Source: Caproicibacterium sp. BJN0003 (GTDB taxonomy: Bacteria > Bacillota > Clostridia > Oscillospirales > Acutalibacteraceae). Taken from it: DNA of 64,000 bases. The position numbers were made by a program, and so were the translations under genes. The notes under the pieces are model-generated. The model did not search any database, was not told the origin of the DNA, and saw only the letters and a program-made list of their open reading frames with translations. Shown piece by piece: positions 6,408-36,056 of this stretch; position 1 is the first letter of the stretch, and every line of letters begins with the position of its first letter. The stretch lies in NCBI RefSeq assembly GCF_026314295.1, contig NZ_CP111108.1, positions 620,001 to 684,000 of the forward strand. The letters run 5' to 3'.

Positions 6408-6427
6408 ATGACGAAAATAAAATAGGA

Positions 6428-6462
6428 AAGGGATGCTGAATGAATTCAGCATCCCTTTTTTT
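6428..6462. terminator. Bidirectional terminator between Dabb gene and NRPS operon
   Basis: A perfect hairpin GGGATGCTGAA / TTCAGCATCCC has a T-run on the plus side and a T-rich stretch on the minus side. The stop codon of the minus-strand gene lies inside the stem, so it serves both convergent units. Confidence 0.9.
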
Positions 6463-6997
6463 GAGCAAAATTATAAAAAAACGGAGTTGATTTTCCGCCG
6501 CAGCAAAAAATTCGGTAAGAGGAGTTCCACTTGATAGGATAAAGAGCAGTTCCGTTTATTGCAGGCAGAAATCCGTTTTGATTAACCGTAGAAAAGCGGC
6601 AAAAATTTTCGTCGATACCGCTGCCTAAATATTTAACATAACTTTCCTTTGCGGTCCATATGGAAAAGAAATCAGAAAACTGTGTTCGGCATAGATGAGA
6701 GTATTCTGCGGGATGAAAAAACCGCTTAGCGATGGAATTCATTTCACGATTTTGTTCAATAATTTGAATATCAAAGCCGATTTTATCACAGTCGCAGAGC
6801 GCACAACCCCAAAAAGTACCGCTGTGTGAGATGGAGATCGTGTAAGGAACTCCTTTTAGATAGGGTTGACCACTTTTCTGATGTTCTAATTTTACGGTAT
6901 AAAAATTGAAATCCGGATTAAAAAGGTGCAGAGATTTTTGCAGTGCGTATTCGAGCGAAAAATCCGGATCTTTTTGAAAGAGAAAAATTTTTGTCAT
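6446..6997 (-). CDS. 4'-phosphopantetheinyl transferase (Sfp type)
   Basis: This enzyme moves the phosphopantetheine arm of CoA onto a serine of carrier proteins. The Sfp-type motifs are visible: G-Q-P-Y-L followed by ISISHSG, the metal-binding I-G-F-D-I-Q, and FFSIWTAKESYVKYLGSG, matching the W-x-x-K-E-x-x-x-K box. At 183 residues it is shorter than Sfp (about 224) but all core motifs are present. It is the last gene of the NRPS operon and overlaps the carrier protein gene by 4 nt (ATGA). It is therefore the expected activator of the two NRPS carrier domains and the stand-alone carrier protein. Confidence 0.93.
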   Translation of the reverse strand: MTKIFLFQKDPDFSLEYALQKSLHLFNPDFNFYTVKLEHQKSGQPYLKGVPYTISISHSGTFWGCALCDCDKIGFDIQIIEQNREMNSIAKRFFHPAEYSHLCRTQFSDFFSIWTAKESYVKYLGSGIDENFCRFSTVNQNGFLPAINGTALYPIKWNSSYRIFCCGGKSTPFFYNFAQKKGC

Positions 6998-7227
6998 TGT
7001 ACGCCCTTATCCTGTAGATAAGAAATGACATCTTTAATGCGGTGCAGCTTCCAAATTTCCCGTGTCTCAATTGTAATGTGAAACTTTTTTTCACAGGCAC
7101 AGACAATGTTAATCAGGTCAAAAGAATTTAACTGTAAATCCTTTACGAGGTCGGTTTCATAGGTGATTCCCTGTTTCCCAGTGATTTCATAAATGATCGC
7201 TTGTAATGTATTTAATAAATTTTCCAA
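6994..7227 (-). CDS. Stand-alone acyl carrier protein
   Basis: This small acidic helical protein has the carrier motif D-L-x-L-N-S-F-D-L, whose serine is the expected phosphopantetheine site. It would hold an acyl chain as a thioester for delivery to the NRPS starter condensation domain. The reading frame extends to a TTG at 7254. An AGGAGG at about 7240-7245 lies inside that extension, so a TTG at 7227 (77 residues) is the better start; the choice is not certain. It lies between the acyl ligase gene (3 nt beyond the longer start) and the transferase gene (4-nt overlap). That order suggests ligase loads carrier and transferase activates it. Confidence 0.88.
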   Translation of the reverse strand: MENLLNTLQAIIYEITGKQGITYETDLVKDLQLNSFDLINIVCACEKKFHITIETREIWKLHRIKDVISYLQDKGVQ

Positions 7228-7257
7228 AATCCGATTTTCCCTCCTAACTTCCAATTT

Positions 7258-8901
7258 CTAAATTTGCCGTTTGATTTTTTGCGCGGAGGTTTTTTCAAAA
7301 GGTGTTTCGCGCAGGTTGACAAGCTGAATTTGTTTGTAAGATGGATATTCAACATTCAGCTCATCAATTTGTTTTTGCAAAAGGTTCAAGACCTCATAAG
7401 AATTCATTCCCTGTGTTTTGTCAGGGTCCGGATAGATCATAACGGCAAGTCTGGCATTGTCCTTTACTTCTCCGATGCTTGCTCCATATGCAATGACCTC
7501 TTTTACAAGTGGTAATTGAGATACACGGGTTTCTATTTCTTCCGGAGAGACCTTTTTTCCGTTTTTCAGAACGATCAAATTCTTTTTTCTGCCGGTAATA
7601 TGTAGAAAACCGTTTTTATCCAGAACTCCAAGATCGCCGGTATGGAACCAGCCGTCAATTAAAACGGAATCCGTCAATTCCTTATCTTTGTAATATCCAA
7701 TCATCACACTGTCTCCACGCACAAGGATTTCATCCTCTTGCAGCTTGAGTTGGAAGCAGGGAAGAACTTTTCCTACACTGCCAAAGCAATAATCCTTATT
7801 GCGGTTTACGCTGATCAGCGGGGAACATTCTGTAATTCCATATCCTTCTAGGCAAACAATGCCGAATTTATGCATCCTCTCAACTACATCCGGAGCAAGA
7901 CAAGCGCCTCCACAGATCAAAAGAGAAAGATCTCCCAAACATTTCTGCTTAATTGCTTTCCATTCAGGTGGGACGGATTCTTCTTTTCGGTGGAACCAAA
8001 GAAGCTGTTTTTCGGGCGGATTTTCAGGCAAACCAGCTTCTGATAAAGCTTGTGACAGGTTTTTGTTTATAATCTCCATAACAAGGGGAACCGCCAGTAA
8101 GGTTCCAGGATCAAAAAGGGCAAGATCACGCTGGAACGTTTTGAGGTTTCCGTTAATACAGAGATGGCAGCCGGCAATCAGTGCATTCAAAACGCAGCAG
8201 GTGATTCCATAGGTATGGAAAAACGGAAGGAAGGTAAATACTTTTTCTGTGAATTTTACCATCGCCATAGATTGACCGGCATTAATTAAGATCCCTTTTT
8301 GAGAGAGCATAACTGCCTTGGAAGCATTGGTTGTTCCGGAGGTGAAGGCAATTACCGCCAGATCATTGCCATTTGTGTTAAGATTTAAAAATGCGTTTCC
8401 CTGCTGTGCAATTAATTGGGCACCCTGTGCACAAACACTCTGAAAACTGTTCGGTGCTTTTTTGTCGTCCGAACATATGCTGACGTTTGCCATTTGTGAA
8501 ATAGGGCCATCTTTTGAGAAAAGCTTTTTTACAGAATCAGACATAATCAAAAAATCGCAGTCCGCAGAAGAAATCATTTTGCGAATCGTATCCGTATCTT
8601 GGTCAATGTCAATTAAAACCGCGACAGAACCGATAGCAGTTACTGTAAAAAAGGAAATCAACCATTCCAGACTGTTTTCTCCAGCGATAGCAATGTGTTT
8701 TCCCTGTAATCCTTTTTGAAGAAGCGCTTCTCCGAATTCATGAGCAGTTTGATAAATTTGCTGGTAAGTAACCGTATGAGGAACCCCGTCCTGATCATAT
8801 TCCGTAATGGCCGGCTGATTTTTATACCGTGCCTGAATGCCAGAAAGGAATGATGAAAAAGTATCATAACAAGTGGTGGGGTAATATGGATAAGAATGCA
8901 T
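7258..8901 (-). CDS. AMP-dependent acyl ligase (fatty acyl-CoA or acyl-ACP synthetase)
   Basis: This 547-residue adenylate-forming enzyme activates a carboxylic acid with ATP. Motifs are the P-loop IAFTSGTTNASKAVMLS, LEGYGITECSPLIS, the hinge region DGWFHTGDLG and ITGRKKNLIVLKNGKKVSPEE. The C-terminus has K-T-S-A-Q-K-I-K-R, where the catalytic lysine of the family lies. The ATG at 8901 follows AAAGGAGAC. The frame is open further upstream, but that part overlaps the preceding gene and has no ribosome site. Placed next to a free carrier protein and an NRPS starting with a condensation domain, it most likely supplies the N-acyl chain. CoA or carrier protein as acceptor cannot be decided here. 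Confidence 0.92.
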   Translation of the reverse strand: MHSYPYYPTTCYDTFSSFLSGIQARYKNQPAITEYDQDGVPHTVTYQQIYQTAHEFGEALLQKGLQGKHIAIAGENSLEWLISFFTVTAIGSVAVLIDIDQDTDTIRKMISSADCDFLIMSDSVKKLFSKDGPISQMANVSICSDDKKAPNSFQSVCAQGAQLIAQQGNAFLNLNTNGNDLAVIAFTSGTTNASKAVMLSQKGILINAGQSMAMVKFTEKVFTFLPFFHTYGITCCVLNALIAGCHLCINGNLKTFQRDLALFDPGTLLAVPLVMEIINKNLSQALSEAGLPENPPEKQLLWFHRKEESVPPEWKAIKQKCLGDLSLLICGGACLAPDVVERMHKFGIVCLEGYGITECSPLISVNRNKDYCFGSVGKVLPCFQLKLQEDEILVRGDSVMIGYYKDKELTDSVLIDGWFHTGDLGVLDKNGFLHITGRKKNLIVLKNGKKVSPEEIETRVSQLPLVKEVIAYGASIGEVKDNARLAVMIYPDPDKTQGMNSYEVLNLLQKQIDELNVEYPSYKQIQLVNLRETPFEKTSAQKIKRQI

Positions 8902-8920
8902 GATTTTTGTCTCCTTTTCT

Positions 8921-10411
8921 TTAAAAGTTAGTGGGGTTGCTTGCGGAGTTGGAATCAGAAAGAATATTTGGATTTCGCTCCAGAATGGACAGAAATACAT
9001 CGACAGGTTCCGGGGCAAATTGCGTTCCACGACCTTCAATTAATTGTTGCTTTGCTTGTTCCAGGGTCAAATTATTGCGGTAGCGGCGGTGAGAGGTCAT
9101 CGCATCAAACGCATCTGCAACACTGATAATTCTCGATTCTTCGGGAATTTCGTAACCGGATATTCCATTTGGATATCCGGTTCCATCCCAATGTTCATGG
9201 TGACTTAAAACGATAGGTGCAATTGTTTGATAGGAACGAATGGAAGAAAGTAAGACGGCACCATCTTTTGAATGCCTTTTGATTACTTTAAATTCTTCAT
9301 CAGTCAGAGGACCATTTTTTAATAAGATTTGGTCAGGGACTTTGATTTTCCCAATATCATGGAAAAGACCGGCGATACGAATTCTTTTGACAAATTCCTT
9401 ACTTTTGCCCATCGATTTTGCAATTAATTCGGAATAATAAGAGACTCGATCAGAGTGGTTGGAGGTATAAATATCTTTTGCATCTACCATGGAGCGTACT
9501 GCATTTGTCATTTCTGCAAATTGCTGCTCCAATTGAGTGTAAGCTTTTTGCAAATGCGCATTTGTCAGATCAACCGTATTTTGAAGCATACGATTTTCCA
9601 GAGCGGCGGTTGCCTGACGGACATAAAGCTGTAAAAGCTGATGGTCTGGAAAATGGTGGGTGGAACTTGAAATTCCGATGATCCCGATTTGCTGATGATA
9701 TTCATCAACTAATGGGATGATTAGAAGCGGATTTTCGGAATCAATTTGGTAATTGTCCTGTTTGTTGTGGGATTGTTCCCAAATTTTATCTGCTGATTTT
9801 TTCCCCTCTTTCAGATTCCCGATTCCGGAAAAAAGTGTTCCTATACTTTTTTCCGGAATATAAACAAATCCATCTTCGATCGAAAATAAACGTTTGAGTT
9901 GTTCCAAAATCAAATCCATTTGCTGCTGTAATGGTTGTCTTTGAAATAATTCGAGGCTTTTTTCTAAAATGTCTTGTAAACCATTTTGATAATGGCGGAT
10001 CGTGCGCATTTGCCGGATCGATTTTACGCAGGATTCTACCAAAAGGCCAAGCTGATCAAAGCGGTCACTTTTTTCATAGTATCCCTGAATATCCAGTTCC
10101 CGAATTGTTTTGACCGGGGGAACTAGGTCCTTATGGCCTGTTAAAAGAATAATATAAAGATCCTGGTTAAAAGCGCGAATTTTCGTAACGACCTCGTCTC
10201 CACAAATTGGAGACATCAGATAATCCAGAAGCAAAATATCATAATTTCCAGTACGAATGCGTTCGATCGCACGTTCCGGATTGTTTTCGGTGTCTACATG
10301 ATATCCGAATTCCTGCAGATAAGATTGTACTGTCAGTGTCATGATTTCATCATCGTCAAGTGTAAGAATTGAAATATCAGTTTGTTGTGCGGAGATGCGG
10401 TGTTTTCTCAT
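8921..10411 (-). CDS. Response regulator with HD-GYP output domain
   Basis: The 496 residues hold a receiver domain (about 12-130; acidic D19-D21, phospho-acceptor D63, T91, K114), a GAF-like middle (about 150-280), a short coiled coil, then an HD-GYP domain (about 305-480). The catalytic signature is complete: HDIGK at 351-355, HHEHWDGTGYP at 404-414. HD-GYP proteins degrade cyclic di-GMP, so phosphorylation is expected to switch local c-di-GMP turnover rather than DNA binding. It overlaps the histidine kinase gene by 4 nt, making a cognate pair, and lies inside the NRPS operon. Confidence 0.95.
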   Translation of the reverse strand: MRKHRISAQQTDISILTLDDDEIMTLTVQSYLQEFGYHVDTENNPERAIERIRTGNYDILLLDYLMSPICGDEVVTKIRAFNQDLYIILLTGHKDLVPPVKTIRELDIQGYYEKSDRFDQLGLLVESCVKSIRQMRTIRHYQNGLQDILEKSLELFQRQPLQQQMDLILEQLKRLFSIEDGFVYIPEKSIGTLFSGIGNLKEGKKSADKIWEQSHNKQDNYQIDSENPLLIIPLVDEYHQQIGIIGISSSTHHFPDHQLLQLYVRQATAALENRMLQNTVDLTNAHLQKAYTQLEQQFAEMTNAVRSMVDAKDIYTSNHSDRVSYYSELIAKSMGKSKEFVKRIRIAGLFHDIGKIKVPDQILLKNGPLTDEEFKVIKRHSKDGAVLLSSIRSYQTIAPIVLSHHEHWDGTGYPNGISGYEIPEESRIISVADAFDAMTSHRRYRNNLTLEQAKQQLIEGRGTQFAPEPVDVFLSILERNPNILSDSNSASNPTNF

Positions 10412-12273
10412 TGTAAAGTACCCTCCTCGGAAAAAGTAACTGTTTCGGCAGGAATAGAGATACCGAAAACAGCACCTCCTTCAGGATGATTATCTGCCCA
10501 CATAATTCCATTGAATTTTGCTTTTATAATGGAGTTTGAAATGTAAAGCCCCAGTCCGGTGCCTAAACTTCCTTTGCTGGTATACATTTGTTTAAACAGC
10601 TTTGTCATGATTTCCGGCGGAATACCTGTGCCATGATCACGGATAGAAAGAATTAAGGCATGGTTGTCTTTTTTAAGAGACAGTTCGATCAGTCCTCCGT
10701 CTGGCTTTTGGGCATCAATCGCATTGGAAATTAAGTTATTAAGGACTTGAACAAGACCGTTAATATCTCCTTGCAGTAAAGCTTCTCCGGAAAAATCCTG
10801 CTGAATTTTTAAAGTGCATTTTTTACTCTTTAATTCATGACGCATTAGAATTTCTACGCGCTTAATTGCGTCATTTAAAGCAAATGTTTGGTTTGGTATT
10901 TCCTGGCTCATGCTGATGGCTTGTCCTTTGACTGCCGAAATAATATCAGACATATAAGAACAGGATTCCCGAATTCTGTTCAACCATTCGGCCATCTCCT
11001 GATAGATTTGGCGGTAGTCTTCTTCGTTTACTTCTGGGTCGCCTAAACTTTTGCAGCATTCATCAACCAGATTGTTAATGGCAAGCGTTCCTCCCGAAAT
11101 TGCCATAATTGGGGTCTTTAGATTATGTGCAATCCCGCCGATCATTTGTCCAAGGGAAGCCAGCCGTTCTTGCTCCACCATACGTTTTTGGCTTTCCTGT
11201 AAACGCTGAATGCTTTTTTTCATCATGGAGACGTCTTTAAAGCAGGCCAAAAATCCGCCTATTTTATCTTGAAGAATGAGGGGAGTGATTTCTACCATGT
11301 AGTATTTTTGATGGTAACCTTCTCCTTCGTTGGGGAGTGTAATGGGTTGTTCATAGGAGATATTGGAACCGGTTTGACGGCAAGTGCCCAAAGAGGTTAG
11401 TAAATTGACAAGACAGGAGCGGTCCAAAGAGTTTCCTTGAATACTGGGAAGATACTGATTTTCCTGAATCCCATTTGCTTTTCCGAAAACTTTTTCAAAT
11501 GGTTTATTATAGTCCAACACCAGGTAATGATCACTTAAAACAAGATAACCGTCGGTAAAAGAATCCAGGATTTGCTGCGTTGCCAATGGCTTGATGTCAA
11601 GAATATGAAAATAAAAAATGGCGAATCCGTCGAGAAGAATCGTTACATTAAAGGCCAGCGGCGTTGCATAAATCTGAAAATCTACAATTCTGAAAGTTGC
11701 AAGGAAACTGACAATTAAAGGAACGGCGGCACCGACGGAAAAGCAGATAGTTTGTTTTATATATAAGCGGTTATGATTGTGAATTGCAAAGTTTGTCATA
11801 AGGGCAATCGAAGAGATCATGCAGATATAACAGTAAATTCCATTTACCATCATAAACGGGCCGAAAACAATTTGATCGGGGATTACGGAGAAATGTTCAT
11901 ACATCAAATGATGCAGTGGATTTGTCCATGCAAGAATTACGGTACAGACAGGAATGACCAAAAACCAATAATAGCGTTTTGGAAACTTTTCCAATCCTTT
12001 GATAAAGGTCAAAGCGATGAGCAGGCAATCAGTGGAGGCTAGTGGTCCTCCCAAATAAGTAGTAGAGTCGCAAAGCCAAAGTCCAAAAGTATCGTCGGGG
12101 TTCGTAAGGCGCATGACCAAAAGGGCGCCCATAAAGACGGCCATTGCAAGAGCCAGCGTAAAAAACAGCCGATGGATCAGACGAAGATTTCCTTTTTTGA
12201 TACTATATGTTACGAAAAATAAAATTGCAAGAATTGAAAAGGAAAAGATGGTACAAACAACGTCTGGTATCAA
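10408..12273 (-). CDS. Membrane sensor histidine kinase (7TM N-terminus, PAS)
   Basis: The 621 residues begin with about seven hydrophobic segments (1-225), as in the 7TM-type kinases. A PAS-like region (about 232-350) and a kinase core follow. The phospho-acceptor H383 lies in IAHNLKTP, the N-box is NLISNAIDA (about 514), the G1 box is DHGTG (547) and the G2 box is GTGLG (572). The start is TTG, set by AAAGGAGG that overlaps the end of the NRPS gene 14 nt away. It therefore is translated from the NRPS message and probably phosphorylates the HD-GYP regulator encoded next. The signal could be an extracellular or membrane-soluble compound; autosensing of the NRPS product is only a guess. Confidence 0.94.
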   Translation of the reverse strand: MIPDVVCTIFSFSILAILFFVTYSIKKGNLRLIHRLFFTLALAMAVFMGALLVMRLTNPDDTFGLWLCDSTTYLGGPLASTDCLLIALTFIKGLEKFPKRYYWFLVIPVCTVILAWTNPLHHLMYEHFSVIPDQIVFGPFMMVNGIYCYICMISSIALMTNFAIHNHNRLYIKQTICFSVGAAVPLIVSFLATFRIVDFQIYATPLAFNVTILLDGFAIFYFHILDIKPLATQQILDSFTDGYLVLSDHYLVLDYNKPFEKVFGKANGIQENQYLPSIQGNSLDRSCLVNLLTSLGTCRQTGSNISYEQPITLPNEGEGYHQKYYMVEITPLILQDKIGGFLACFKDVSMMKKSIQRLQESQKRMVEQERLASLGQMIGGIAHNLKTPIMAISGGTLAINNLVDECCKSLGDPEVNEEDYRQIYQEMAEWLNRIRESCSYMSDIISAVKGQAISMSQEIPNQTFALNDAIKRVEILMRHELKSKKCTLKIQQDFSGEALLQGDINGLVQVLNNLISNAIDAQKPDGGLIELSLKKDNHALILSIRDHGTGIPPEIMTKLFKQMYTSKGSLGTGLGLYISNSIIKAKFNGIMWADNHPEGGAVFGISIPAETVTFSEEGTLQ

Positions 12274-12287
12274 AATTTTTGCCTCCT

Positions 12288-15200
12288 TTAAGAGTCAAAT
12301 TGAAGAAATTGCTTTAATAAAATGGTCGGTTTCGGATTTTTCCATTCGAATCCTAGCTGTTGTAAACGCGTAACCGTTTGTTCGCAGGAGGGAATGATAT
12401 GTACCGGTTTGCTGCAGGAACGGTTCCAGATTTCCATGAGAGGAGCCATTAAAAGATCAGGAAGCTGCTCCATTTTTTGCAGCATTCGTTTTTCAAATAT
12501 GGAATCTTCCACGATTTGAGCGGATGGAGAAAGTGTATGGACTAGTTCCCATAACGGCCAAGTATGCGGATTCAGTAAATGATAGACCGCAGGAGATTTT
12601 GTGCTGGGATGAAGAGAGAGCAGTACAATTGCTTTTGCACATTCATCGACAGGGCAAAGCTCGATGGGAGTATTTTTAAGAGAATCCGGAACGCAGTTTA
12701 AAAGCAGCAGACCACGCAAAAACCCATAAAAAGCATTGCTCTTTGGATTGCGCTGGAATTTTCCGTCTTGGCTGCGTCCGACGAGCCTTCCAATCCGAAA
12801 AATCTGTGCATGAAGCCCATGAGAAGCGGCAAAGAATATTTTTTGTTCTGCTAGGAACTTTCCTTTTATATAGAGGTTTTCTTCCCAGTTTTGTCCAATG
12901 TCCAAATCGTTTTCTGTAAACCGAACTTCCTTTGAGGGATGATCCAGAAGATAATCACCGCAGACACTGGCAGTGGAAATATGAAGCAGTTTTGCACCGG
13001 TCCTTTGGGCGAGGCGGATTGCCTGTACCGTACCATCTACATTCGTGCGGAGAGAATGGTTCTCTTCTGCATAATGACGGACATCGGCCGCTGCGTGAAG
13101 AATGGTTCCGACAGAGTGGGTCAGTTCATTTAATGTGTTTTCCGAAAGCCCCATCAGTGGACGGCAAAGATTTCCGTCCAGAATGGTTAGTTTTTGTTTG
13201 TTTTTGGAGACCCATTGTTCTCCAAAATAATCGGAGAGAATTTGAAACAGACGCTCCGGTTCTCCGCCGCGCACAAGGCAATATAAATTTTGACACCCAT
13301 TTTCTAGAAGCTCTTTTAGTAAATGAGAGCCTAAAAATCCGGTGCTGCCTGTTAAGAATACGGCACTTTTTTTGGTTGGAGAAGCTGAAAATTCTGAGTC
13401 GATTTGAGAAATTGTCGAAGAGGAGACTTTTAATCCTGTCGGCTTTTTGTGAATTTCTGTTTCTGAAGAATTGTCGGATTTTCTCGATAACAGCTTTAGC
13501 TGACCATTGAGAGTGGGCACCTCGTAAAATTGTGCCAGAGTCATCGTCCAACCTTTTCGAAAATAACGGCTGAGAATTGTTAGTGCGGTTAAAGAGGTTC
13601 CCCCCTGATCGAAGAAGGACTCATTCGGGTCCAACTTTTCACGGTTGAGAACAGAAGTCCAAATTTCCAAGAGAAATTCTTCTGTAGGAGAATCGTGCGA
13701 TCCATCGGAAGAAGGCCTAATCTCCTTTTGAGGCAAAGCAGGAGGACAACTGTCCTTTTGAGGAGAAAGGGAGGCTGCAGAATCCACCCGGTAAGCTTTT
13801 AAAGCTTGTCGGTCTGTTTTTCCGCTTGCCGTTCTCGGCAGGGACTCCAAAACAATAAAAGTAGAGGGAATCATATATTTTGGAAGCTTTTCAGAAAGAA
13901 ATGATTTTAGTGCGGAAAGATCGGGAGAAGACTGTCTTCCTTTTGGCACGACAAAAGCGCGAAGTTCCATAGCAATTTTACTGCGAACTGCGATAACAGC
14001 TGCCTCTGCGACCAATTTTGAAGCGAGAATTTGTCCTGCAATTTCGTCCAGTTCCACACGCTGACCATTTAATTTTACCTGTAAATCGCGGCGTTCTACA
14101 AAGTCAAAGGAGCGGTCGGGCAGCATCCGAATAATATCTCCGGATTTATACATTCGACTTCCTGGACAGAACGGGTCTGGAAGATAAGAGTTCTTTGTCA
14201 AATCCGGTCGGTTTACATAACCAATAGAAAGACAGTCTCCGCCGATATAAAGTTCACCGCGCGCAGTTGGCATAACTGGGCGCAAATTTTCGTCCAAAAC
14301 ATAGGTATGGCAATTTGGAATTGCTTTTCCGACGGAAATCTTTTTGCGGTGTGTCATGTCAATACAGGTCATATAAACGGTTACTTCTGTTGGCCCATAG
14401 AGATTATAAATTTGTTCGACACCGGTTTTTCGCAGGGACTCCAAAAGCTGAGGAGTCAGCAGCTCTCCGCAGGAAAATAATAGCTTGATTTGAGGCAGAA
14501 CACTGAGAAATTCCTCATTATTTAAACACATCTGAAGTCTTGTAGGGGTAAACTGTAAAAATTCGACATGCTCTTCACGAACAAGACGGGCAATTTCCCA
14601 AGGCAAAAGCATTTCGTTTTCGTCTGCCATGACGCAGCATCTTCCCATTGCAAAGGTCAGAAGTGTTTCTGTAATAAACGTATCAAAAATCACACCGGCA
14701 ATACAGAGACTTGCTCCACGAACGTTTTTAAAAACCTGCCGCATGGTGCCCAAAAGATTTGCTAGAGCGCGGTGGGGAAGAACCGCTCCCTTTGGTTTTC
14801 CGGTAGAACCTGATGTAAAGAGAATATGAATAGCATCTTCCGGGGAACGTCCCGAGATGGGCAGACGGGGGACAACCTCATCTGTCATCGTTAAAATTTC
14901 ACAGGGAAGATCGTTTGGCAGTTCTTTTTGTGTATTCGGATCGCAAAAAAGCAGCTTTGCACCCGAAATATCCAGCATATAGCAGATGCGTTCTTTCGGG
15001 AAATTGGAAAGAATCGGCATATAGGCAGCGCCTGCTTTTAAAATGCCCAACATCCCTGCAACAAGGTCGGAGTCTCTGCGAGCTGCCAATGCGACATAAT
15101 CGCCGTGCTTTACGCCTGCTTGCTGTAGCTGTCCGGCGAGAGAATCAGAGCGGGCTTTTAATTGCGCAAAGGTAGTGGTATGCCCATGACAGCGGATTGC

Positions 15201-18101
15201 AGGGGAATTTGGAATGATCGCCGCTGTTTCATCAAAGATCTGATCCATACATTCGTTTAGATAGGGCATACTCATACGGTTTGGGAGAACGAGAAGCTCC
15301 AAACGGTCTCTCTCTGAGGTTGGGTTCAAATCATAAAGCTCCTGTTGATCATCTTGCAGAATACGTTCTACCAGTGTGCAGTAGCTTCTGGAAAGAAGCT
15401 GAATTGTTTCCGGGAGGAATAAAGTTTTTGCATATTCCAAGTAAAAAATAAATTGGCCATTTTCATCGCGTGCTTCCATATTGAGATCAAGCTTTGCGGT
15501 TTTGGTAGGAATAGGCAGATACTTTAATGGCTTTCCGTGAAACTGAAATGCCTTTTCAGAAATTGGCCGATAAGAGAAGAGAATATTAAAAAGAGCGTTG
15601 CGGCTTAGATCACGCTGTGCGCCTGTAATGGAAATCAGTTCTTCCATGGAAATGTCGGGATGATCCAGAAGTCCAATTACGGATTCTTTTAAATCAGAAA
15701 AATATTGAGAACAGGTCTTTTTGCGCTGGGGGATGATCCTTAATGGCAGGGAATGAATAAAAACACCCAGAACATTTTGAAGTGCGGGATCAGGCCGGTT
15801 CGAGACCGGAGTACCAATTAGAAAATCTTCTGTTCCACTCCATTTTGAGAGCAAAATCCCATAAACTCCAATGAAAAAGGTGAAGAAAGAAAGATCGTTT
15901 TTCTGACAATATTTTTGACACTTTTCGCTGAGATCATGACTGAGCGAAAATTCAATGGAATCTCCACAGTAGTCAAACTGTTTTGGACGTGCAAAATCTA
16001 AAGGAATATCCAGAAAATCCGGCACGCCAGAGAGTGCCTTTTCCCAGTAGGAAAAGTGTGCGGAGCTGGATGATTTCCGATTTTCCAGGAGATAGGCATA
16101 GTCTTTATAGAAGATTTTTTGTTGCTCTTTTGGGCTTCCACAGTAGCGGGCGTTGAGACGCTGCAAAAGAAGCGGCGTGCTGAGGCCGTCCCCGATAATG
16201 TGATGCGAATCGACAAAGAGAATCCATTCGTCTTTTGGAGAATGCCAAAGTGCAGCGCGGAGAAGCGGCGGTTTATCAAGCTCGAACGGATGGACAAAAT
16301 GGTCGGCTGCCTTTTGGAAGGTTTCGTCCTCTAAGTGTTGCAGATGGAAAGAAACATTTTCCAGAATTTTTTGACGTGGTTCTGACTCATTCATATAAAA
16401 AGCAGTCCGAAAGATCTCTTCATCGGAAATTAGCTCGCAAAAAGCGTTTTCGAGCAAGGATTCGTCCGGCTTTTCGGAAAAAAGAAAAGCGCCCGGCATA
16501 TTGTAAGAAATCTTTTGGGGATCAAGCTGAGACTGAAAATAGAGACTTTTCTGTGCCGGAGAAAGCGGATAGCTCTCATAAAGCGGCGCGGGCTGAATCT
16601 TTTGAGAGACCGAAATCCCATATTGAGAGCGCTCTTCCTGTACTTTCTTTTCCAGACGGCGTACTGTGCGAAAAGCGTAAAGATCTGAAATTTTTAGAGA
16701 GACGCCCAACTGATCGTAAATTTGGCAAAGCGTTCCCATTGCGTTGAGAGAATCTCCACCTGAAAGAAAATAGTCGCTGTCAATGTTTAAAGATTCCTGC
16801 TTTAGCACATGGCAAAAAATTTGCAGCAGCGTTTTTTGCACGGTGGTTTCTGCCAAAGCATCTCCTACTTGTTCCTGCGGCTTTGGCAATTGCTTCTCGT
16901 CCACTTTTCCGTTTGCAGTGAGCGGGAGGACGGACATTTTTATAAATACTGCTGGAATCATTGGAGCGGGCAGATAGGAAGCCATATGGGTGATCAGCTG
17001 TGTTTCAGATAGATCGGAGTCCGAGGTGTAATAAGCTGCAAGATAAGAAGATTCTCCCTGATGGAAAAGGCGCAGGGCGGCCTCTTTTATTTTTGGGTGA
17101 GAAGTTAAGCAGGAAATAATTTCCTGTGGTTCCATCCGATAGCCGCGAAGTTTGATTTGCTGATCCTTCCGGCCGTCTAAGATGATTTTTCCGTCGGCAG
17201 TAAAGTGGGCAAGATCGCCGGTTTTATAAAGACGTTCTCCCGGCACGAATGGGTTTTTGCAGAAGGAGGACTCGGTCAGATCTTTTCTGCCGCGATAGCC
17301 CCTACTTAGGCATACTCCTCCAATAAAAAGTTCTCCGGAAATGCCGATCGGTAAAGGCTGCAGATGAGAATTCAGAATATAAAGCGAACAGTTCTGCATG
17401 GGGGTTCCCGCAGTGAGAATACTTTCTGAATTTAAGAGTTGCAGACTGACTCCGATAGTGGCTTCAGAGGGACCATATTGATTGTAAATTTTAGCATGGG
17501 TTTTAGACTTTAGTGTTTCGATCAGTTCCCATGGAATTGATTCTCCTCCGCAGAGAATTCCTTCCAATCCCGAAATAGAATCTGCAAATGTCTGATTTTG
17601 CAGATAGGCTGCTAGGCGGGATGGGGTCGTTGAAAGGAACGATACGTTTTGTGAGAGAATCAGCCGAGCAAGTTCATCCGGATTTTCCTGCTCTTTTTGT
17701 GTTGCCAGAACGACAGTACACCCATTTAAAAGGGCACAGATACTTTCCAGCAAAAAAGCGTCAAAACCGATATTGCAGATGGATAAAACGGTTTTGCCCT
17801 CATAAATAGCTGCCATTCCAGATGCAAAATTAAGGAGGCTCTTCTGCTCAATTTCTACTCCTTTAGGGGTACCGGTGCTGCCGGAGGTATAAACTACATA
17901 GGCAAGCGAATCCTGAGAAACCGGTAACGCTTTTGAGGAAGCTTTTTTGAAGAAACTGCTTCTGCGGACAGAAAAGGGATTTTTGTCAGCATAGGAGCTT
18001 TTTCCAGATTCGTTTCGTCGCAGATCCAAAGAGCAGCTCCGCTTTCCTTTAAAAGAACTTTCAGACGTTCCGATGGAAATTCCTGAGGGAGCAGGACCCA
18101 T
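12288..18101 (-). CDS. NRPS, main reading frame: A1(C-terminal)-T-C-A-T-reductase
   Basis: This 1937-codon frame continues the condensation/adenylation frame encoded upstream, one base out of phase. Its first 52 or so codons are not meaningful protein; homology starts near residue 60. It then holds adenylation core TSGSTGTPKG (72-81), NQYGPSE (207), LYKTGDL, carrier domain 1 GGDSL (Ser451), condensation domain 2 HHIIGDG (633-639), adenylation domain 2 TSGSTGKPKG (1096-1105) with YGPTE (1235), carrier domain 2 GGTSL (Ser1503), and a thioester reductase with GSTGFLG (1585-1591), STAS and the YIKGK catalytic pair (1744-1748). A terminal reductase releases the chain as an aldehyde. There is no ribosome site at the formal ATG, so translation should enter by a -1 shift from the upstream frame. 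Fused product: about 2481 residues. Confidence 0.92.
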   Translation of the reverse strand: MGPAPSGISIGTSESSFKGKRSCSLDLRRNESGKSSYADKNPFSVRRSSFFKKASSKALPVSQDSLAYVVYTSGSTGTPKGVEIEQKSLLNFASGMAAIYEGKTVLSICNIGFDAFLLESICALLNGCTVVLATQKEQENPDELARLILSQNVSFLSTTPSRLAAYLQNQTFADSISGLEGILCGGESIPWELIETLKSKTHAKIYNQYGPSEATIGVSLQLLNSESILTAGTPMQNCSLYILNSHLQPLPIGISGELFIGGVCLSRGYRGRKDLTESSFCKNPFVPGERLYKTGDLAHFTADGKIILDGRKDQQIKLRGYRMEPQEIISCLTSHPKIKEAALRLFHQGESSYLAAYYTSDSDLSETQLITHMASYLPAPMIPAVFIKMSVLPLTANGKVDEKQLPKPQEQVGDALAETTVQKTLLQIFCHVLKQESLNIDSDYFLSGGDSLNAMGTLCQIYDQLGVSLKISDLYAFRTVRRLEKKVQEERSQYGISVSQKIQPAPLYESYPLSPAQKSLYFQSQLDPQKISYNMPGAFLFSEKPDESLLENAFCELISDEEIFRTAFYMNESEPRQKILENVSFHLQHLEDETFQKAADHFVHPFELDKPPLLRAALWHSPKDEWILFVDSHHIIGDGLSTPLLLQRLNARYCGSPKEQQKIFYKDYAYLLENRKSSSSAHFSYWEKALSGVPDFLDIPLDFARPKQFDYCGDSIEFSLSHDLSEKCQKYCQKNDLSFFTFFIGVYGILLSKWSGTEDFLIGTPVSNRPDPALQNVLGVFIHSLPLRIIPQRKKTCSQYFSDLKESVIGLLDHPDISMEELISITGAQRDLSRNALFNILFSYRPISEKAFQFHGKPLKYLPIPTKTAKLDLNMEARDENGQFIFYLEYAKTLFLPETIQLLSRSYCTLVERILQDDQQELYDLNPTSERDRLELLVLPNRMSMPYLNECMDQIFDETAAIIPNSPAIRCHGHTTTFAQLKARSDSLAGQLQQAGVKHGDYVALAARRDSDLVAGMLGILKAGAAYMPILSNFPKERICYMLDISGAKLLFCDPNTQKELPNDLPCEILTMTDEVVPRLPISGRSPEDAIHILFTSGSTGKPKGAVLPHRALANLLGTMRQVFKNVRGASLCIAGVIFDTFITETLLTFAMGRCCVMADENEMLLPWEIARLVREEHVEFLQFTPTRLQMCLNNEEFLSVLPQIKLLFSCGELLTPQLLESLRKTGVEQIYNLYGPTEVTVYMTCIDMTHRKKISVGKAIPNCHTYVLDENLRPVMPTARGELYIGGDCLSIGYVNRPDLTKNSYLPDPFCPGSRMYKSGDIIRMLPDRSFDFVERRDLQVKLNGQRVELDEIAGQILASKLVAEAAVIAVRSKIAMELRAFVVPKGRQSSPDLSALKSFLSEKLPKYMIPSTFIVLESLPRTASGKTDRQALKAYRVDSAASLSPQKDSCPPALPQKEIRPSSDGSHDSPTEEFLLEIWTSVLNREKLDPNESFFDQGGTSLTALTILSRYFRKGWTMTLAQFYEVPTLNGQLKLLSRKSDNSSETEIHKKPTGLKVSSSTISQIDSEFSASPTKKSAVFLTGSTGFLGSHLLKELLENGCQNLYCLVRGGEPERLFQILSDYFGEQWVSKNKQKLTILDGNLCRPLMGLSENTLNELTHSVGTILHAAADVRHYAEENHSLRTNVDGTVQAIRLAQRTGAKLLHISTASVCGDYLLDHPSKEVRFTENDLDIGQNWEENLYIKGKFLAEQKIFFAASHGLHAQIFRIGRLVGRSQDGKFQRNPKSNAFYGFLRGLLLLNCVPDSLKNTPIELCPVDECAKAIVLLSLHPSTKSPAVYHLLNPHTWPLWELVHTLSPSAQIVEDSIFEKRMLQKMEQLPDLLMAPLMEIWNRSCSKPVHIIPSCEQTVTRLQQLGFEWKNPKPTILLKQFLQFDS

Positions 18102-19732
18102 GCGTTTCCGGATTGAGCAATTCCAATCATGGCGGCAATTAAAAGAAATCCTTTTGGCAGGGTGACAGCGATCAGCTCATGACCGTTTGGACAAAGTGAA
18201 TGAATTGCAGATGCAAAATTTTCCGCAATGGAAAATAGTTGATGAAAAGAAAGCTCAGTATCTTTACAGATCAGAGCAGCCTTTTGTGGAGCTTCTTTGG
18301 CTGCTTTCAAGAGATTTTCATAGAGACTGCCCGGCTTTATCGGTGCCTGATTTTTGTTAAATTGAAAAAGAATTTTTTCCTGCTCTGCTTTTGGAAGAAT
18401 CGGAAGCTGAGAAAGCACTTCTTGCGGTGAGTCGATTGCTGCTTTTAAAATTTCTATTAAAGATTCATGAAGATTCGTGATTTCTTTTTGGGAAAAAAGC
18501 TGTACTCTGTAATCGTAGTCGATAGAGAGGGGGCTCCCTACCTCTAAATTGCCTAAATGAATGACCAGAGCTTCTGCCTGACAGCCGCTGTAAAACCAGT
18601 GCCCGGAAAAGTTTAGAGAAGAGGATTTAGAAGGAATAAGATGGGTATCCTGATAGGAGAGTGCCACCTGAAAAATTCGATCGGTTCCAGGAATCGATTT
18701 TCTGAATAGTTCTGTGATTTTTCCAAAAGGATACTGTTGGTGACGCAGTAAATCATACCAGGCTACGGCAAGACTTTGAATCAACTTTTCGAATGTTTGG
18801 GATTCATCTATTTCGAAAACAAATGGAAGGGTGCTGACAAACATACCGGTCATTTGTTTTTCTAGAAAAGTTGGGCGATTTAAAATCGGAACACCAATGC
18901 AGATATCTGGAGAGTTGGAAATCTTTTGCTGATAAATTGCAAGTGCCGCGTAAAAAAGCAGAAATGGGGCAATATGATTTTGCTGACAAAATACTTTTAA
19001 TGTTTTGTCTAGCTTATCAGTAAGGACAAAAGATTTTCGATTACCCACAGTGCTGGCTGCAGAAAGAGTTTGTTTTTTTAGAAAGTTGTTTTCCTTAAAA
19101 AGAGAAGCTTGTTTTTTCCAAAAAATTTCATCAGATTTTTGTATTTCGGAATCCAAATACATTTGTTCCCGCTTTAAATGTTCCGAATAATCTGGAAAAG
19201 AGATTTTGGGAAGGACTTCTCCATTTAAAAGTGCTTGATAAATGGAAGCGATACGGTTAGCAATCAGCATTTGAGACCAACCGTCCGAAATCAGATGATG
19301 AATTTTAAAAAGTACGCCGCCGCTTGTTTCTCCGGCTTTAAAGACAGAAAAATAAAAAAGCGGGTGGTCATTGATTGGAAATGCTTCATGAGCCACTGCT
19401 TTTTCCCAGGATAAAAGTCCTTCTTTTCCAGTTTGAGAAAAATCGAATACTGGGATCGAAACTTTTTTGTACGGAGAAATCCATTGAACAGGAACCCCGC
19501 TTTTTTGCTGGATTTGAATGCGTAGAGCGGAATCGCTTTTTAAAACAAGTTGGATTGCTTCTATCAAAAAAGGAATTTTAAAAGTTCCATTGATTGAGAG
19601 AGAGGTCGTGATAATGTTCATTGGAGAGCCAGAATAGAGTTGCTCTAAGTTCCAGATGTTTTTCTGACTCGAGGAGAGAGCAGAGATAGGGTGTGATTGC
19701 CAAGTGGAAAATTCATTTTCGGGGGAATCCAT
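17894..19732 (-). CDS. NRPS, upstream reading frame: starter condensation domain and N-terminal half of A1
   Basis: This frame starts at the ATG at 19732 after AAGGAAGGCGG. Residues about 15-440 form a condensation domain with the active-site HHLISDGW (His145, His146, Asp150, Gly151). Since it is the first domain and no module precedes it, it is probably a lipo-initiating (starter) condensation domain that accepts an acyl group. From about residue 470 an adenylation domain begins, but the frame ends at 612 soon after the A2-like region S-G-N-A-W-V-L-L-P. The rest of the adenylation domain continues in the -1 frame from 17943-17948. If no shift occurred, the 612-residue product would lack an adenylation active site. 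Confidence 0.9.
   Translation of the reverse strand: MDSPENEFSTWQSHPISALSSSQKNIWNLEQLYSGSPMNIITTSLSINGTFKIPFLIEAIQLVLKSDSALRIQIQQKSGVPVQWISPYKKVSIPVFDFSQTGKEGLLSWEKAVAHEAFPINDHPLFYFSVFKAGETSGGVLFKIHHLISDGWSQMLIANRIASIYQALLNGEVLPKISFPDYSEHLKREQMYLDSEIQKSDEIFWKKQASLFKENNFLKKQTLSAASTVGNRKSFVLTDKLDKTLKVFCQQNHIAPFLLFYAALAIYQQKISNSPDICIGVPILNRPTFLEKQMTGMFVSTLPFVFEIDESQTFEKLIQSLAVAWYDLLRHQQYPFGKITELFRKSIPGTDRIFQVALSYQDTHLIPSKSSSLNFSGHWFYSGCQAEALVIHLGNLEVGSPLSIDYDYRVQLFSQKEITNLHESLIEILKAAIDSPQEVLSQLPILPKAEQEKILFQFNKNQAPIKPGSLYENLLKAAKEAPQKAALICKDTELSFHQLFSIAENFASAIHSLCPNGHELIAVTLPKGFLLIAAMIGIAQSGNAWVLLPQEFPSERLKVLLKESGAALWICDETNLEKAPMLTKIPFLSAEAVSSKKLPQKRYRFLRIRLPM
17942..17948 (-). other. Candidate -1 ribosomal slippery heptamer A-AAA-AAG within the NRPS
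   Basis: Read on the minus strand in the upstream NRPS frame, the sequence is A AAA AAG, the heptamer used for programmed -1 frameshifting in Escherichia coli dnaX. A -1 slip here joins the two frames exactly in the variable linker between adenylation core motifs A2 and A3, giving V-S-S-K-K-A-S-S-K-A. The zero frame stops 17 codons later. Downstream, TACCGGT (17870-17876) and ACCGGTA (17920-17926) could pair, but the loop is long, and no Shine-Dalgarno-like enhancer is visible upstream. A lost A in a run of originally seven would give the same picture. Confidence 0.6.
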
Positions 19733-20170
19733 TTAATTTCCGCCTTCCTTAAAAAAGAATTTTACAGAAAAAAGAAAAGGCATTTTTCTAGAGCAATTGA
19801 ACAATTTAAAATGCAACTTTTCCTTTTATATATATATGTACTCATTATAAAAGTCATTTTTACAAAATTCAATGAAAAGATACATTTTTTTACACTTTAA
19901 TTAGAAGCTTTTTACACATAAAAAGCACAATATTAAAATATGAAAATATAAAGTTAAGCATTTGTTCTCGACGAAATTAATAGAAAAAATGGAACATTTT
20001 GACGTTACAAAACGTTCATTTTATAAGTCTTGCAATTGAAATTCATTTTGTATATACTTAATAAGACTGTAAATATTGGTTGAACTATGTGAATTACGCA
20101 TTTTAAGATAAAATTTTTACACGAAATTCAAAACCTGTTTTCGATAAGGAATCAGGGAAGGGGAGGTTTC
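19733..20170. promoter_or_regulatory. AT-rich divergent regulatory region between NRPS operon and polysaccharide cluster
   Basis: No gene is seen in these 438 bases. On the minus strand TTGAAT and TATAAT (19867-19872 and 19844-19849, 17-bp spacer) make a good NRPS promoter, leaving a leader of about 105 nt. On the plus strand TTGCAA (20030-20035) and TATACT (20053-20058, 17-bp spacer) should drive the glycosyltransferase operon. An inverted repeat TGACGTT / AACGTTCA near 20000-20018 lies just upstream of the plus promoter and may be an operator. Confidence 0.65.
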
Positions 20171-30271: not shown

Positions 30272-32968
30272 TTGAAGCACAAACAATTTGGAATGATGTT
30301 GGTAACGGCGTTATTAGGCGTTGGGACTGCTTTGATTCCGGTATATGCTGCGGAACAGACCTCGTCATCTGAAAATGCACTTTCTTCTTTTTCACAGGAA
30401 CAAGTAGAATCCCAATCTGTTTCGGAGAGTAATAGTCAAGTATCCTCAACACCTTCGACGTCATCGAAATCAGCAATAACATCTGATACCAGCGCTTCTG
30501 TTTCCTCGGCTTCTTCGAGCGTAAGTGGGAATCCATCTTCAGATGTAGAAGGGACTCCCTCATCAAAAGAATCGTTGCAGACAGTGACTCCGCCAGTTTC
30601 TGATGGCTGGAAAACAGAAAGTGGAGCTGTCTATTATTACAAGAATGGACAGAAGCAAAAAGGTTGGCTGCAGCTGGACGGAAAGAAGTATTACCTGGAT
30701 GCCCAGACAGGAGTCAGAAAGACAAAAGAACTATTTCAGACAGAAAAAGGCTTCAGCTATGCGCAGGCAGATGGAACGATTCTGAGCGGCGGCAAGCAAA
30801 AGGGGGACGATGGGAATCTCTATTTAGTAAGCAGCGATGGGATTTTACGAGATCCTGGTTTGCTTGTAACTCCAGACTATGACGGTTACTGGGCACCTTA
30901 CTATATCGACCCTAACACCCATGCAGTCAAGACCGGACTTTTCAGTGTGAATGGGACTTATTATTATGGTCGGGAAGACAAAGGGTATCTTGTCTGCGGA
31001 AAATACAAGGCACCGGACGGAAATACTTACTTAGCAAATAGTGATGGCACTTTGCGGAAATCCGGTTTGCTGATAACTCCGGACTATGATGGTTATTGGG
31101 CACCTTACTATATCGATCCTAACACCCATGCAATCAAAACCGGGCTTTTCAACATAAACGGGACTTATTATTACGGTCGGGAAGATAAAGGATATCTTGT
31201 CTGCGGAAAATACAAAGCTCCGGACGGAAATACCTACTTAGCCAACAGTAACGGTACTTTGCGAAATTCCGGTTTGCTTGTAACTCCGGACTATGACGGT
31301 TACTGGGCACCGTATTATATCGACCCTGCGACCCATGCAATTAAAACAGGGCTTTTCAACATAAACGGGACTTATTATTACGGTCGGGAAGATAAAGGAT
31401 ATCTTGCCTGCGGAAAATACAAGGCACCGGACGGAAAGACTTACTTAGCAAATAGTGACGGTACTTTGCGGAATTCTGGTTTGCTGATAACTCCGGACTA
31501 TGATGGCTACTGGGCACCGTATTATATTGATCCTGCGACTCATGCAGTTAAAACAGGGCTTTTCAGCGTGAACGGGACTTATTATTACGGTCGGGAAGAT
31601 AAAGGATATCTTGCCTGCGGAAAATATAAGGCACCAGACGGAAAGACTTACTTAGCAAACAGCAACGGTACTTTGCGGAATTCTGGTTTGGTTGTAACAA
31701 ATCAGTATGACGGCTATTGGGCACCGTATTATATTGACCCTGAAACTCATGCAGTTAAAACTGGGCTTTTCAGTGTGAATGGGACTTATTATTATGGCCG
31801 GGAAGATAAAGGATATTTTGTCTGCGGAAAATACAAAGCACCGGACGGAAAGACCTACTTAGCAAATAGTGACGGCACTTTGCGGAATTCTGGTTTGGTT
31901 GTAACAAATCAGTATGATGGCTACTGGGCACCGTATTATATTGATCCTGAAACCCATGCAGTTAAGACAGGCCTTTTCAACATAAACGGGACTTATTATT
32001 ACGGTCGGGAAGATAAAGGATATTTTGTCTGCGGAAAGTATAAAGCTCCGGATGGACATTTTTATCTTGCGAATAGTGACGGGAAACTGCTGACTCAAAC
32101 TGGATGGCTTGAGACGAGTCAGTATGATGGGGTTACAGAACGCTATTATCTGGAAAATCCAACCGGAAATTATTCGACTGTTAAAACGGGAAAATTCAGT
32201 GTGGATGGCCATGATTATTACGGTCGGGAAGATAATGGATCTCTTGTGATTGGCCTCTATTATGCTCCGGATGGAACCTGTTATTACGGAGACCATAATG
32301 GAATTTTGGGAACAGTTCCCGATACAGCACAGATTAATGTTCCGTATTTTAGCCAAGAGGGAGACTTCCCAACTGGATGTGAATTAGTGAGCGCATATAT
32401 GGTGCTGCAATATTATGGAGTTCCTATTTCTGAGGACGAATGGGTTTCTCGTATCCCATGTACGGATTTGAGTTCTATTGATTCGTGGCCTGAACTTGCT
32501 GGCCCTAGTCCAGATGAATGTTTTGTTGGAAATCCATATCTTTTAGATGGATTTGGGTGCTTTCCACCTGTCATTGTAGATGCAATGAATCAGGTTTTAC
32601 CGGAAGGGCATAGAGCAATGGTCACAACTGGAACTCCTTTGCAGGAGTTGGCAGAATCGTATGTATCGGTTGGAAAACCCGTCCTTGTTTGGGCAACAAT
32701 TAATATGATTCCTAGTTATCCTTCCCTGACATGGATGATTACAGATCCCGGAATTCAATCTGTAGATTATTATGATTATTGGGATTCTGTTACCGGCGAA
32801 ACCTTTACATGGCCTGCTAATGAGCATTGTTTGGTTTTAGTCGGGTATGACTCAGACTATTATTATTTCAATGATCCCTATGATGGGAATGGAGTAAAAG
32901 CTTATGACCGTGCCCTTGTGGAAAGCCGTTTTCTGGGTCTTGGGTGTCGAAGCGCAGTCGTTTTATAA
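30272..32968 (+). CDS. Secreted repeat protein with C39-like peptidase domain
   Basis: TTG start after AAGGAGG. The 898 residues hold a signal peptide (cleavage near V-Y-A-A), a Ser/Thr-rich linker (about 25-105), two cell-wall-binding-type repeats (W-K-T-E-S-G-A-V-Y-Y-Y and G-W-L-Q-L-D-G-K-K-Y-Y-L-D), six 69-residue repeats, one divergent repeat, and a C-terminal catalytic domain (about 690-898). That domain has an early Cys in PTGCELVSAYM and a late His in NEHCLVLVGYD followed by FNDP, the layout of the C39-like peptidase family 2. It may cleave peptides or peptidoglycan cross-links at the surface. The substrate is unknown. The scaffold is nearly identical to the next two proteins. Confidence 0.88.
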   Translation: MKHKQFGMMLVTALLGVGTALIPVYAAEQTSSSENALSSFSQEQVESQSVSESNSQVSSTPSTSSKSAITSDTSASVSSASSSVSGNPSSDVEGTPSSKESLQTVTPPVSDGWKTESGAVYYYKNGQKQKGWLQLDGKKYYLDAQTGVRKTKELFQTEKGFSYAQADGTILSGGKQKGDDGNLYLVSSDGILRDPGLLVTPDYDGYWAPYYIDPNTHAVKTGLFSVNGTYYYGREDKGYLVCGKYKAPDGNTYLANSDGTLRKSGLLITPDYDGYWAPYYIDPNTHAIKTGLFNINGTYYYGREDKGYLVCGKYKAPDGNTYLANSNGTLRNSGLLVTPDYDGYWAPYYIDPATHAIKTGLFNINGTYYYGREDKGYLACGKYKAPDGKTYLANSDGTLRNSGLLITPDYDGYWAPYYIDPATHAVKTGLFSVNGTYYYGREDKGYLACGKYKAPDGKTYLANSNGTLRNSGLVVTNQYDGYWAPYYIDPETHAVKTGLFSVNGTYYYGREDKGYFVCGKYKAPDGKTYLANSDGTLRNSGLVVTNQYDGYWAPYYIDPETHAVKTGLFNINGTYYYGREDKGYFVCGKYKAPDGHFYLANSDGKLLTQTGWLETSQYDGVTERYYLENPTGNYSTVKTGKFSVDGHDYYGREDNGSLVIGLYYAPDGTCYYGDHNGILGTVPDTAQINVPYFSQEGDFPTGCELVSAYMVLQYYGVPISEDEWVSRIPCTDLSSIDSWPELAGPSPDECFVGNPYLLDGFGCFPPVIVDAMNQVLPEGHRAMVTTGTPLQELAESYVSVGKPVLVWATINMIPSYPSLTWMITDPGIQSVDYYDYWDSVTGETFTWPANEHCLVLVGYDSDYYYFNDPYDGNGVKAYDRALVESRFLGLGCRSAVVL
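30857..32101 (+). repeat. Six tandem 207-bp coding repeats (surface protein 1)
   Basis: The unit encodes 69 residues with D-Y-D-G-Y-W-A-P-Y-Y-I-D, T-G-L-F, N-G-T-Y-Y-Y-G-R-E-D-K-G-Y and C-G-K-Y-K-A-P-D-G. Units are mostly identical at DNA level; two N-terminal variants (L-L-V/I-T-P-D and L-V-V-T-N-Q) and two strand variants (F-S-V-N-G and F-N-I-N-G) alternate. The aromatic-rich pattern resembles choline- or glucan-binding repeats. Confidence 0.92.
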
Positions 32969-32995
32969 AAAATTTTAGAAAGGGGATCAATCACT

Positions 32996-35854: not shown

Positions 35855-35869
35855 AATTCATAATGAAAT

Positions 35870-35914
35870 AAAAAAGATTGCAAGCCTAGAATAGTAGGTT
35901 TGCAATCTTTTTTT
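35870..35914 (+). terminator. Rho-independent terminator after the GH25 protein
   Basis: The stem AAAAAAGATTGCAAGCCTA pairs with TAGGTTTGCAATCTTTTTT, followed by more Ts. It separates the third repeat protein, which has its own AT-rich leader at 35915-36056. Confidence 0.9.
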
Positions 35915-36056
35915 ATGTTGTCTAAAAATAAAAACGAAAGCATATAGATTTAATTGGATACATATACAAATTTTAGAAATTTTAATAAAATAATTTTGTA
36001 AATTTTTAAAATTTATGCTAAAATATTTATATTATAAAAAGAAGTAGGGAAAAGTG

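Follow-up and report, generated by a model that had tools for sequence, protein, structure and literature searches.

A reductase-terminated nonribosomal peptide synthetase operon of Caproicibacterium with a 7TM histidine kinase and an HD-GYP regulator: a putative make-and-sense cassette

Described systems closest to the locus

Gut bacteria produce N-acyl dipeptide aldehydes that inhibit cathepsins and other proteases (PMC8518294, PMC12327764, PMC8210680). Members of this family include N-octanoyl-Met-Phe-H, from the cluster of Guo et al. 2017 (BGC0001686), and the Ruminococcus bromii product ruminopeptin (Schneider and Balskus), both as described in the same three articles (PMC8518294, PMC12327764, PMC8210680). 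In Streptomyces, peptide aldehydes of the livipeptin/leupeptin type are N-acyl dipeptide aldehyde protease inhibitors that have been postulated to regulate the producer (PMC10548850). A further point of comparison is the Rpf/DSF system of Xanthomonas (rpfBFCG), which groups the genes for the synthase of a lipophilic signal and for a fatty acyl ligase with those for a membrane kinase and a phosphodiesterase of the REC-HD-GYP type (PMC3749722).

We compared with these systems a six-gene cassette on the minus strand (19732-6446) of a 64,000-nucleotide stretch of the Caproicibacterium sp. BJN0003 genome (NZ_CP111108.1, positions 620,001 to 684,000; hereafter the window). The cassette runs from a nonribosomal peptide synthetase (NRPS) gene through genes for a 7TM histidine kinase and a REC/HD-GYP response regulator to those for an acyl ligase, a free acyl carrier protein (ACP), and an Sfp-type transferase. 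It resembles the NRPS pathways of gut Clostridia with N-acylated dipeptide aldehyde products: we found the domain order C-A-T-C-A-T-R (across a frame break; intact in the sister genome G009), a first condensation domain (C1) of the starter type, and acyl activation genes beside the NRPS. By its predicted product, the biosynthetic part is a further member of this known class. By contrast, the window's clade adds an operon-borne 7TM kinase and HD-GYP protein to what is found in the gut family, in which RupA and BGC0001686 were compared by description only, and this obligate, exclusive pair is the new element. The livipeptin/leupeptin type shares the N-acyl dipeptide aldehyde class with the product predicted for the cassette but differs in its C-less NRPS and tRNA-utilizing enzyme (PMC10548850). 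AusA/AusB of Staphylococcus aureus (aureusimines, phevalin) are alike in the match to module 2 and the reductase (R) domain and in the adjoining Sfp-type phosphopantetheinyl transferase. AusA has no starter C domain, ligase, or ACP, and its free-amine aldehyde cyclizes to a pyrazinone. The NRPS in the window does not belong to the AusA pyrazinone synthetases, because a starter C domain is present and module 2 with the R domain scored 1113 bits with the NCBIfam AusA model, below its cut-off of 2500.

The likeness to Rpf/DSF lies in the parts list, in the encoding of a REC-HD-GYP protein with the kinase, and in the lack of an exporter, the lipophilic signal being thought to diffuse out. However, the cassette has an NRPS in place of the RpfF crotonase, a 7TM sensor in place of that of RpfC, a kinase without the REC and HPT domains of RpfC, and all its genes in one operon. 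An RpfF-type crotonase was absent from the operon, and no extra gene was common to the relatives. The cassette is not an Rpf/DSF member, and we found no evidence for common descent as a system. A search of largely open-access literature gave no paper uniting HD-GYP, a histidine kinase, an NRPS, and an aldehyde in Clostridia; the sole match to HD-GYP, nonribosomal peptide, gut, and Lachnospiraceae concerned rumen AI-2.

Operon organization and the frame break in A1

The features of the operon, given in window positions, are as follows.

19844-19872, minus: sigma-70-like promoter match TTGAAT-17-TATAAT, 112 bases upstream of the NRPS start; a consensus match only
17894-19732, minus: NRPS 5' part; starter-type C1 (about 19702-18350) and the N-terminal third of A1, with a stop after the frame break
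17943-17948, minus: frame break in A1; six-A run (T on the plus strand) against seven in sister G009; A_AAA_AAG in the 0 frame
12288-18101, minus: NRPS 3' part; rest of A1 (to ~16878), T1 16832-16650, C2 16574-15294, A2 15236-13818, T2 ~13694-13497, R 13355-12291
10408-12273, minus: sensor histidine kinase; N-terminal 7TM region (HisKA_7TM, 12273-11569), HisKA, and HATPase
8921-10411, minus: response regulator; REC, DUF3369/GAF-like middle, and HD-GYP with all metal and GYP residues
7258-8901, minus: AMP-forming fatty acyl ligase; ORF open from 9039, start at 8901 set by relatives and a Shine-Dalgarno sequence
6994-7254, minus: free ACP; phosphopantetheine site LNS, kept in all relatives
6446-6997, minus: Sfp/AusB-like 4'-phosphopantetheinyl transferase (PPT)
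6427-6458, minus: terminator-like hairpin of 14 pairs at the operon end

The gene order and coordinates agreed with those of the original prediction, which had been made on this DNA from the letters alone. Adjoining genes were spaced by 4-base overlaps or by gaps of ~3-20 bases, and Shine-Dalgarno-like sequences were present upstream of the kinase, regulator, and ligase genes. The regional total of sigma-70-like promoter matches was no higher than in shuffled sequences. The ligase matched only general FadD/AMP-binding models, which fit a CoA ligase and an acyl-ACP ligase alike. All six genes were also found in a genome of another genus of the same family (G245), with 38-54% identity; this occurrence, together with the further loci described below, ruled out a chance ORF pattern.

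The NRPS is present as two overlapping ORFs (19732-17894 and 18101-12288) that lie in different frames, the A run at 17943-17948 being one A short of that in G009. In this sister genome of the same genus, seven A were found at the break site, and the NRPS is one ORF of 2481 aa with 94-95% identity. The match of the 3' ORF to the intact sister begins at ~17942, and the ATG at 18101 is not preceded by a Shine-Dalgarno sequence. In the compared regions, the window's genome and G009 have 69 ORFs in common, among which the NRPS alone was broken. A general sequencing error was thereby ruled out, which leaves an isolated lesion or a single error. The dN/dS ratio was 0.09 on either side of the break, 0.03-0.10 for other operon genes, and 0.28 for PPT. 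Since the coding sequence before and after the break and the other genes are under purifying selection, we regard the break as a lesion of very recent date or as a single sequencing error.

We give even weight, for and against, to the view that in this genome we are dealing with a decaying pseudo-operon, with synthesis abolished by the frame break. The A run one base shorter than that of the intact sister, the downstream ATG without a Shine-Dalgarno sequence, and the absence of a second broken gene from the 69 orthologous ORFs favor it; the purifying selection flanking the break and in all other genes, however, is contrary to it. A programmed or slippage-corrected -1 frameshift at A_AAA_AAG, which would give full-length NRPS at a set low rate, is highly improbable. 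The known slippery heptamer is there, in the correct frame, but the features that accompany it in programmed -1 frameshift genes, a stimulatory structure and conservation in relatives, are both absent: the downstream structure was no stronger than in shuffles (z 0.41), and the sister and other relatives are read in a single frame, so that a break at this site is unconserved. Moreover, the heptamer is common, with 75 sites within the window, and a cut within the A domain would yield no useful short product. With the NRPS broken, production is doubtful, and the strain may yield no product at all; it is probably a non-producer if the frame break is real. The original prediction of a product was partly supported: its biosynthetic reading passed the check that it had set itself, but the broken NRPS in this genome was left out of account.

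Two observations were made alongside. Across the window, AAAAAAG was over-represented (75 vs 49.6 expected), and none of 100 shuffles contained as many. A split gene in Holdemania filiformis (L069) was considered as a case of parallel decay, which was ruled out by a run of N in the record.

The synthetase and its predicted product

When both NRPS ORFs were read jointly, the order C-A-T-C-A-T-R of the original prediction was recovered, and in G009 it lies within the single 2481-aa ORF. The motifs of the NRPS were intact, with HHxxxDG in both C domains (HHLISDG in C1) and GGxS in both T domains. The R domain likewise retained TGSTGFLG, ISTASV, and YIKGKF, which comprise the NAD motif and the S/T-Y-K residues.

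The type of C1 was examined in a tree of C domains (n = 70), in which the starter-position domains and RzmA-Cs were split from internal domains with a support of 1.0. C1 fell in the starter group and C2 in the internal/LCL group with TycC6, Txo2, 5u89, and 8xjz, while one N-terminal C domain (L040) was placed among the internal domains. The tree references were drawn from HMMER alignments and were partial, including RzmA-Cs, the single solved starter reference; the node joining the starter group to RzmA-Cs was weak (0.49-0.59), whereas the split from LCL was strong. The PDB ranking of C1 alone was ambiguous, with 125 bits for Txo2 and 120 bits for RzmA-Cs. The tree split ruled out that C1 is an LCL domain, a grouping that the original prediction had named as evidence against itself. 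The genome has no more than two full condensation domains, besides one weak and distant match, and there is therefore no upstream module to feed C1. The earlier proposal of N-acylation from the starter C domain, ligase, and carrier is in line with the starter-group C1 and with the ligase and ACP being kept in the operon across families.

The solved R domains closest to that of the NRPS were 6vtj, which we take to be an archaeal PCP-R, and AusA-R. Taken together, the starter-type C1, an R domain nearest to PCP-R/AusA, and the absence of an upstream module make an N-acyl dipeptide aldehyde the best and most likely product prediction; the acyl chain, the amino acids, and the aldehyde as the end product are all parts of this inference. 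A four-electron reduction by the R domain, which would give an N-acyl dipeptide alcohol, is quite unlikely. Some NRPS R domains are known to reduce to alcohols, and the MxcG NRPS model matched as well. By contrast, the archaeal PCP-R and AusA are the nearest solved R domains, and a two-electron reductive release has been reported for AusA (PMC8210680). The aldehyde release expected from the start thus fits the nearest R domains, although an alcohol is also allowed by the sequence itself.

Furthermore, we aligned the adenylation domains to GrsA-PheA and obtained the pocket codes DALSLGQIG-K for A1 and DTTQFCLVY-K for A2. The PheA reference sequence gave back the known PheA code. The A1 residues read earlier (DALSLGQIG) were identical, but those of A2 (DTFQLSLVY) were wrong at positions 239, 299, and 301. 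Across the clade, the codes were D-[AV]-[LI]-[SAT]-x-G-Q-[IV]-[GA] for A1 and Dxx[QE]xxxV[YC] for A2. Substrate assignment from these codes was given up, as there was no confident match. In Holdemania massiliensis (L072), the R domain has an ORF to itself, with a 4-base overlap with the NRPS stop (16345-16348), and this split is either a natural separation of T2 and R or a frame change.

The kinase and HD-GYP pair in the clade

We next describe the two signaling genes. The kinase matched HisKA_7TM (PF16927) with 113.6 bits against a cut-off of 28.6, which places it among the 7TM kinases, and its HisKA domain was just below the cut-off (22 vs 26.9 bits). It is the one HisKA_7TM protein in the whole genome carrying the window. 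The structure model of the sensor was confident (pLDDT 84) and contained seven helices, and comparison with GPCR-like folds gave Z of 16-18 and rmsd of 3.0-3.6 over 205-219 residues, with a Foldseek E no better than 7e-3. Helical bundles score high Z by themselves, and only topology is claimed: for the sensor (11569-12273, minus strand), a GPCR-like arrangement of seven helices is predicted. The most conserved sensor stretch was TNPLHHLxYxxFS; provided that the kinase domain is in the cytoplasm, this stretch would fall in the outer loop that links helices 4 and 5. The phospho-acceptor H383 and ATP-binding boxes of the kinase were conserved, as were the Asp and Lys of the receiver.

In the regulator, the HD residues, the downstream metal His/Asp, and the HHExxDGxGYP residues were conserved in 14 sequences, and the protein is a predicted c-di-GMP phosphodiesterase. 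The genome contains seven GGDEF matches, two EAL, and one PilZ, with the operon's HD-GYP as the sole one, and c-di-GMP control is therefore plausible. The HD-GYP protein has no DNA-binding domain; thus, feedback on its own operon is not evident. At four loci (L064, L065, L066, and L103), a short response regulator of about 345 aa was found, without the DUF3369/GAF-like middle and with REC and HD-GYP kept.

Scanning of named genomes yielded 16 loci, including L059, which is on the same contig as G245. The hosts were Eisenbergiella porci and E. tayi, Lachnospiraceae CE91-St56, two Diplocloster, three Holdemania, and several MAGs. At 14 of the 16 loci, such a kinase directly followed the NRPS and was followed by the HD-GYP gene and then the ligase where the available sequence extended far enough. 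L071 differs in the sensor of its kinase; at L073 there is an NRPS fragment, and a different contig of the same genome carries the kinase, HD-GYP, and an NRPS. Eight loci could be extended, and these carried the ligase (8/8), the ACP (8/8), and the transferase (5/8), the ACP in two Holdemania loci having been found by reading the short gap. Beyond the cassette, the flanks of these eight loci differed and held housekeeping or unrelated genes. No exporter, protease, resistance target, or DNA-binding regulator was common to these relatives, and nothing was shared beyond PPT.

The distribution of the sensor was followed with a profile built from 15 sequences of the sensor region alone. At E<=1e-12, exactly one copy was detected in 14 of the 15 relatives' genomes, at the NRPS locus, and the fifteenth was that of L071. 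Among 391 genomes of the class, 28 had a close C1 (E<=1e-90), and the sensor was found only in the window's genome at E<=1e-45, a strict cut-off that remote 7TM kinases in the class genomes may escape. In the C-domain tree, the kinase-bearing NRPSs formed one clade (support 1.0). The pairwise distances of C1, the kinase, and HD-GYP were correlated (r 0.73-0.87; 0 of 2000 permutations as high). The host families differ (Lachnospiraceae, Holdemania/Erysipelotrichaceae, and the window's family), which, together with the unrelated flanks, suggests that the whole cassette spread horizontally. The kinase/HD-GYP pair is an obligate and exclusive part of the unit and is not incidental. The original prediction had listed both genes correctly but left them uninterpreted, even though they define the cassette of this clade.

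A different arrangement was observed in the MAG SUG1206 (L071, 1980-8327), where a monomodular C-A-T-R NRPS of 1446 aa has the pocket DILQMGMIWK. The kinase that follows it has a catalytic core 47% like that of the window and a sensor without a 7TM match. This locus is possibly a second, shorter version that both makes and senses a product.

On balance, we favor the reading of the six genes as a mobile make-and-sense cassette, in which synthesis of an acyl dipeptide aldehyde is joined to a dedicated sensor with c-di-GMP output. The ligase would activate a fatty acid and load the free ACP, C1 would couple the acyl group to the first amino acid on T1, and C2 would add the second. Reduction with NADPH by the R domain would then free the chain as an N-acyl dipeptide aldehyde, expected to be a transition-state-type inhibitor of serine/cysteine proteases. 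The kinase may respond to this lipophilic product or to a state caused by it, and the phosphorylated REC-HD-GYP protein should lower c-di-GMP, as RpfC/RpfG do for DSF; both the kinase ligand and the direction of the c-di-GMP effect are inferred. Sensing of its own product would be the simplest reason for the strict co-inheritance of the kinase.

The main rival to product sensing is an external cue: the operon would be a plain biosynthetic operon of the known family, and the kinase and HD-GYP protein would sense a nutrient, a surface, or the host, being co-transcribed so that production and lifestyle switch together. We regard this as a serious possibility, though somewhat improbable. In its favor, gut bacteria already have known products of this class (PMC12327764, PMC8518294), the remaining members of the C1 family have no such sensor, and co-transcription fits regulation by an external cue equally well. 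However, the sensor never occurred without the NRPS in the tested genomes, whereas a general environmental sensor would not usually be so restricted. Beyond the make-and-sense reading, a self-contained cell-cell signaling system of gut Firmicutes can be imagined, with the aldehyde as autoinducer, a GPCR-like 7TM kinase, and an HD-GYP c-di-GMP readout, as a Gram-positive, nonribosomal counterpart of Rpf/DSF that passes between families as a six-gene unit; this we consider unlikely, if conceivable. A clade in which synthesis always comes with a single dedicated membrane sensor and an output of the c-di-GMP type gives a direct and testable lead: the producer itself may perceive the molecule or what the molecule does. 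Intact-looking operons are available for this in named, mostly cultured hosts (Eisenbergiella, Holdemania, and Diplocloster).

Elsewhere in the window (30272-38732, plus strand), three surface proteins of about 890-950 aa are arranged in tandem and have common N-terminal parts (a choline-binding-like repeat and DUF1408). Their C-terminal catalytic domains differ, being a C39-like peptidase, a GH25 lysozyme, and a YkuD L,D-transpeptidase, and the array, which adjoins polysaccharide genes, looks like a case of domain swapping.
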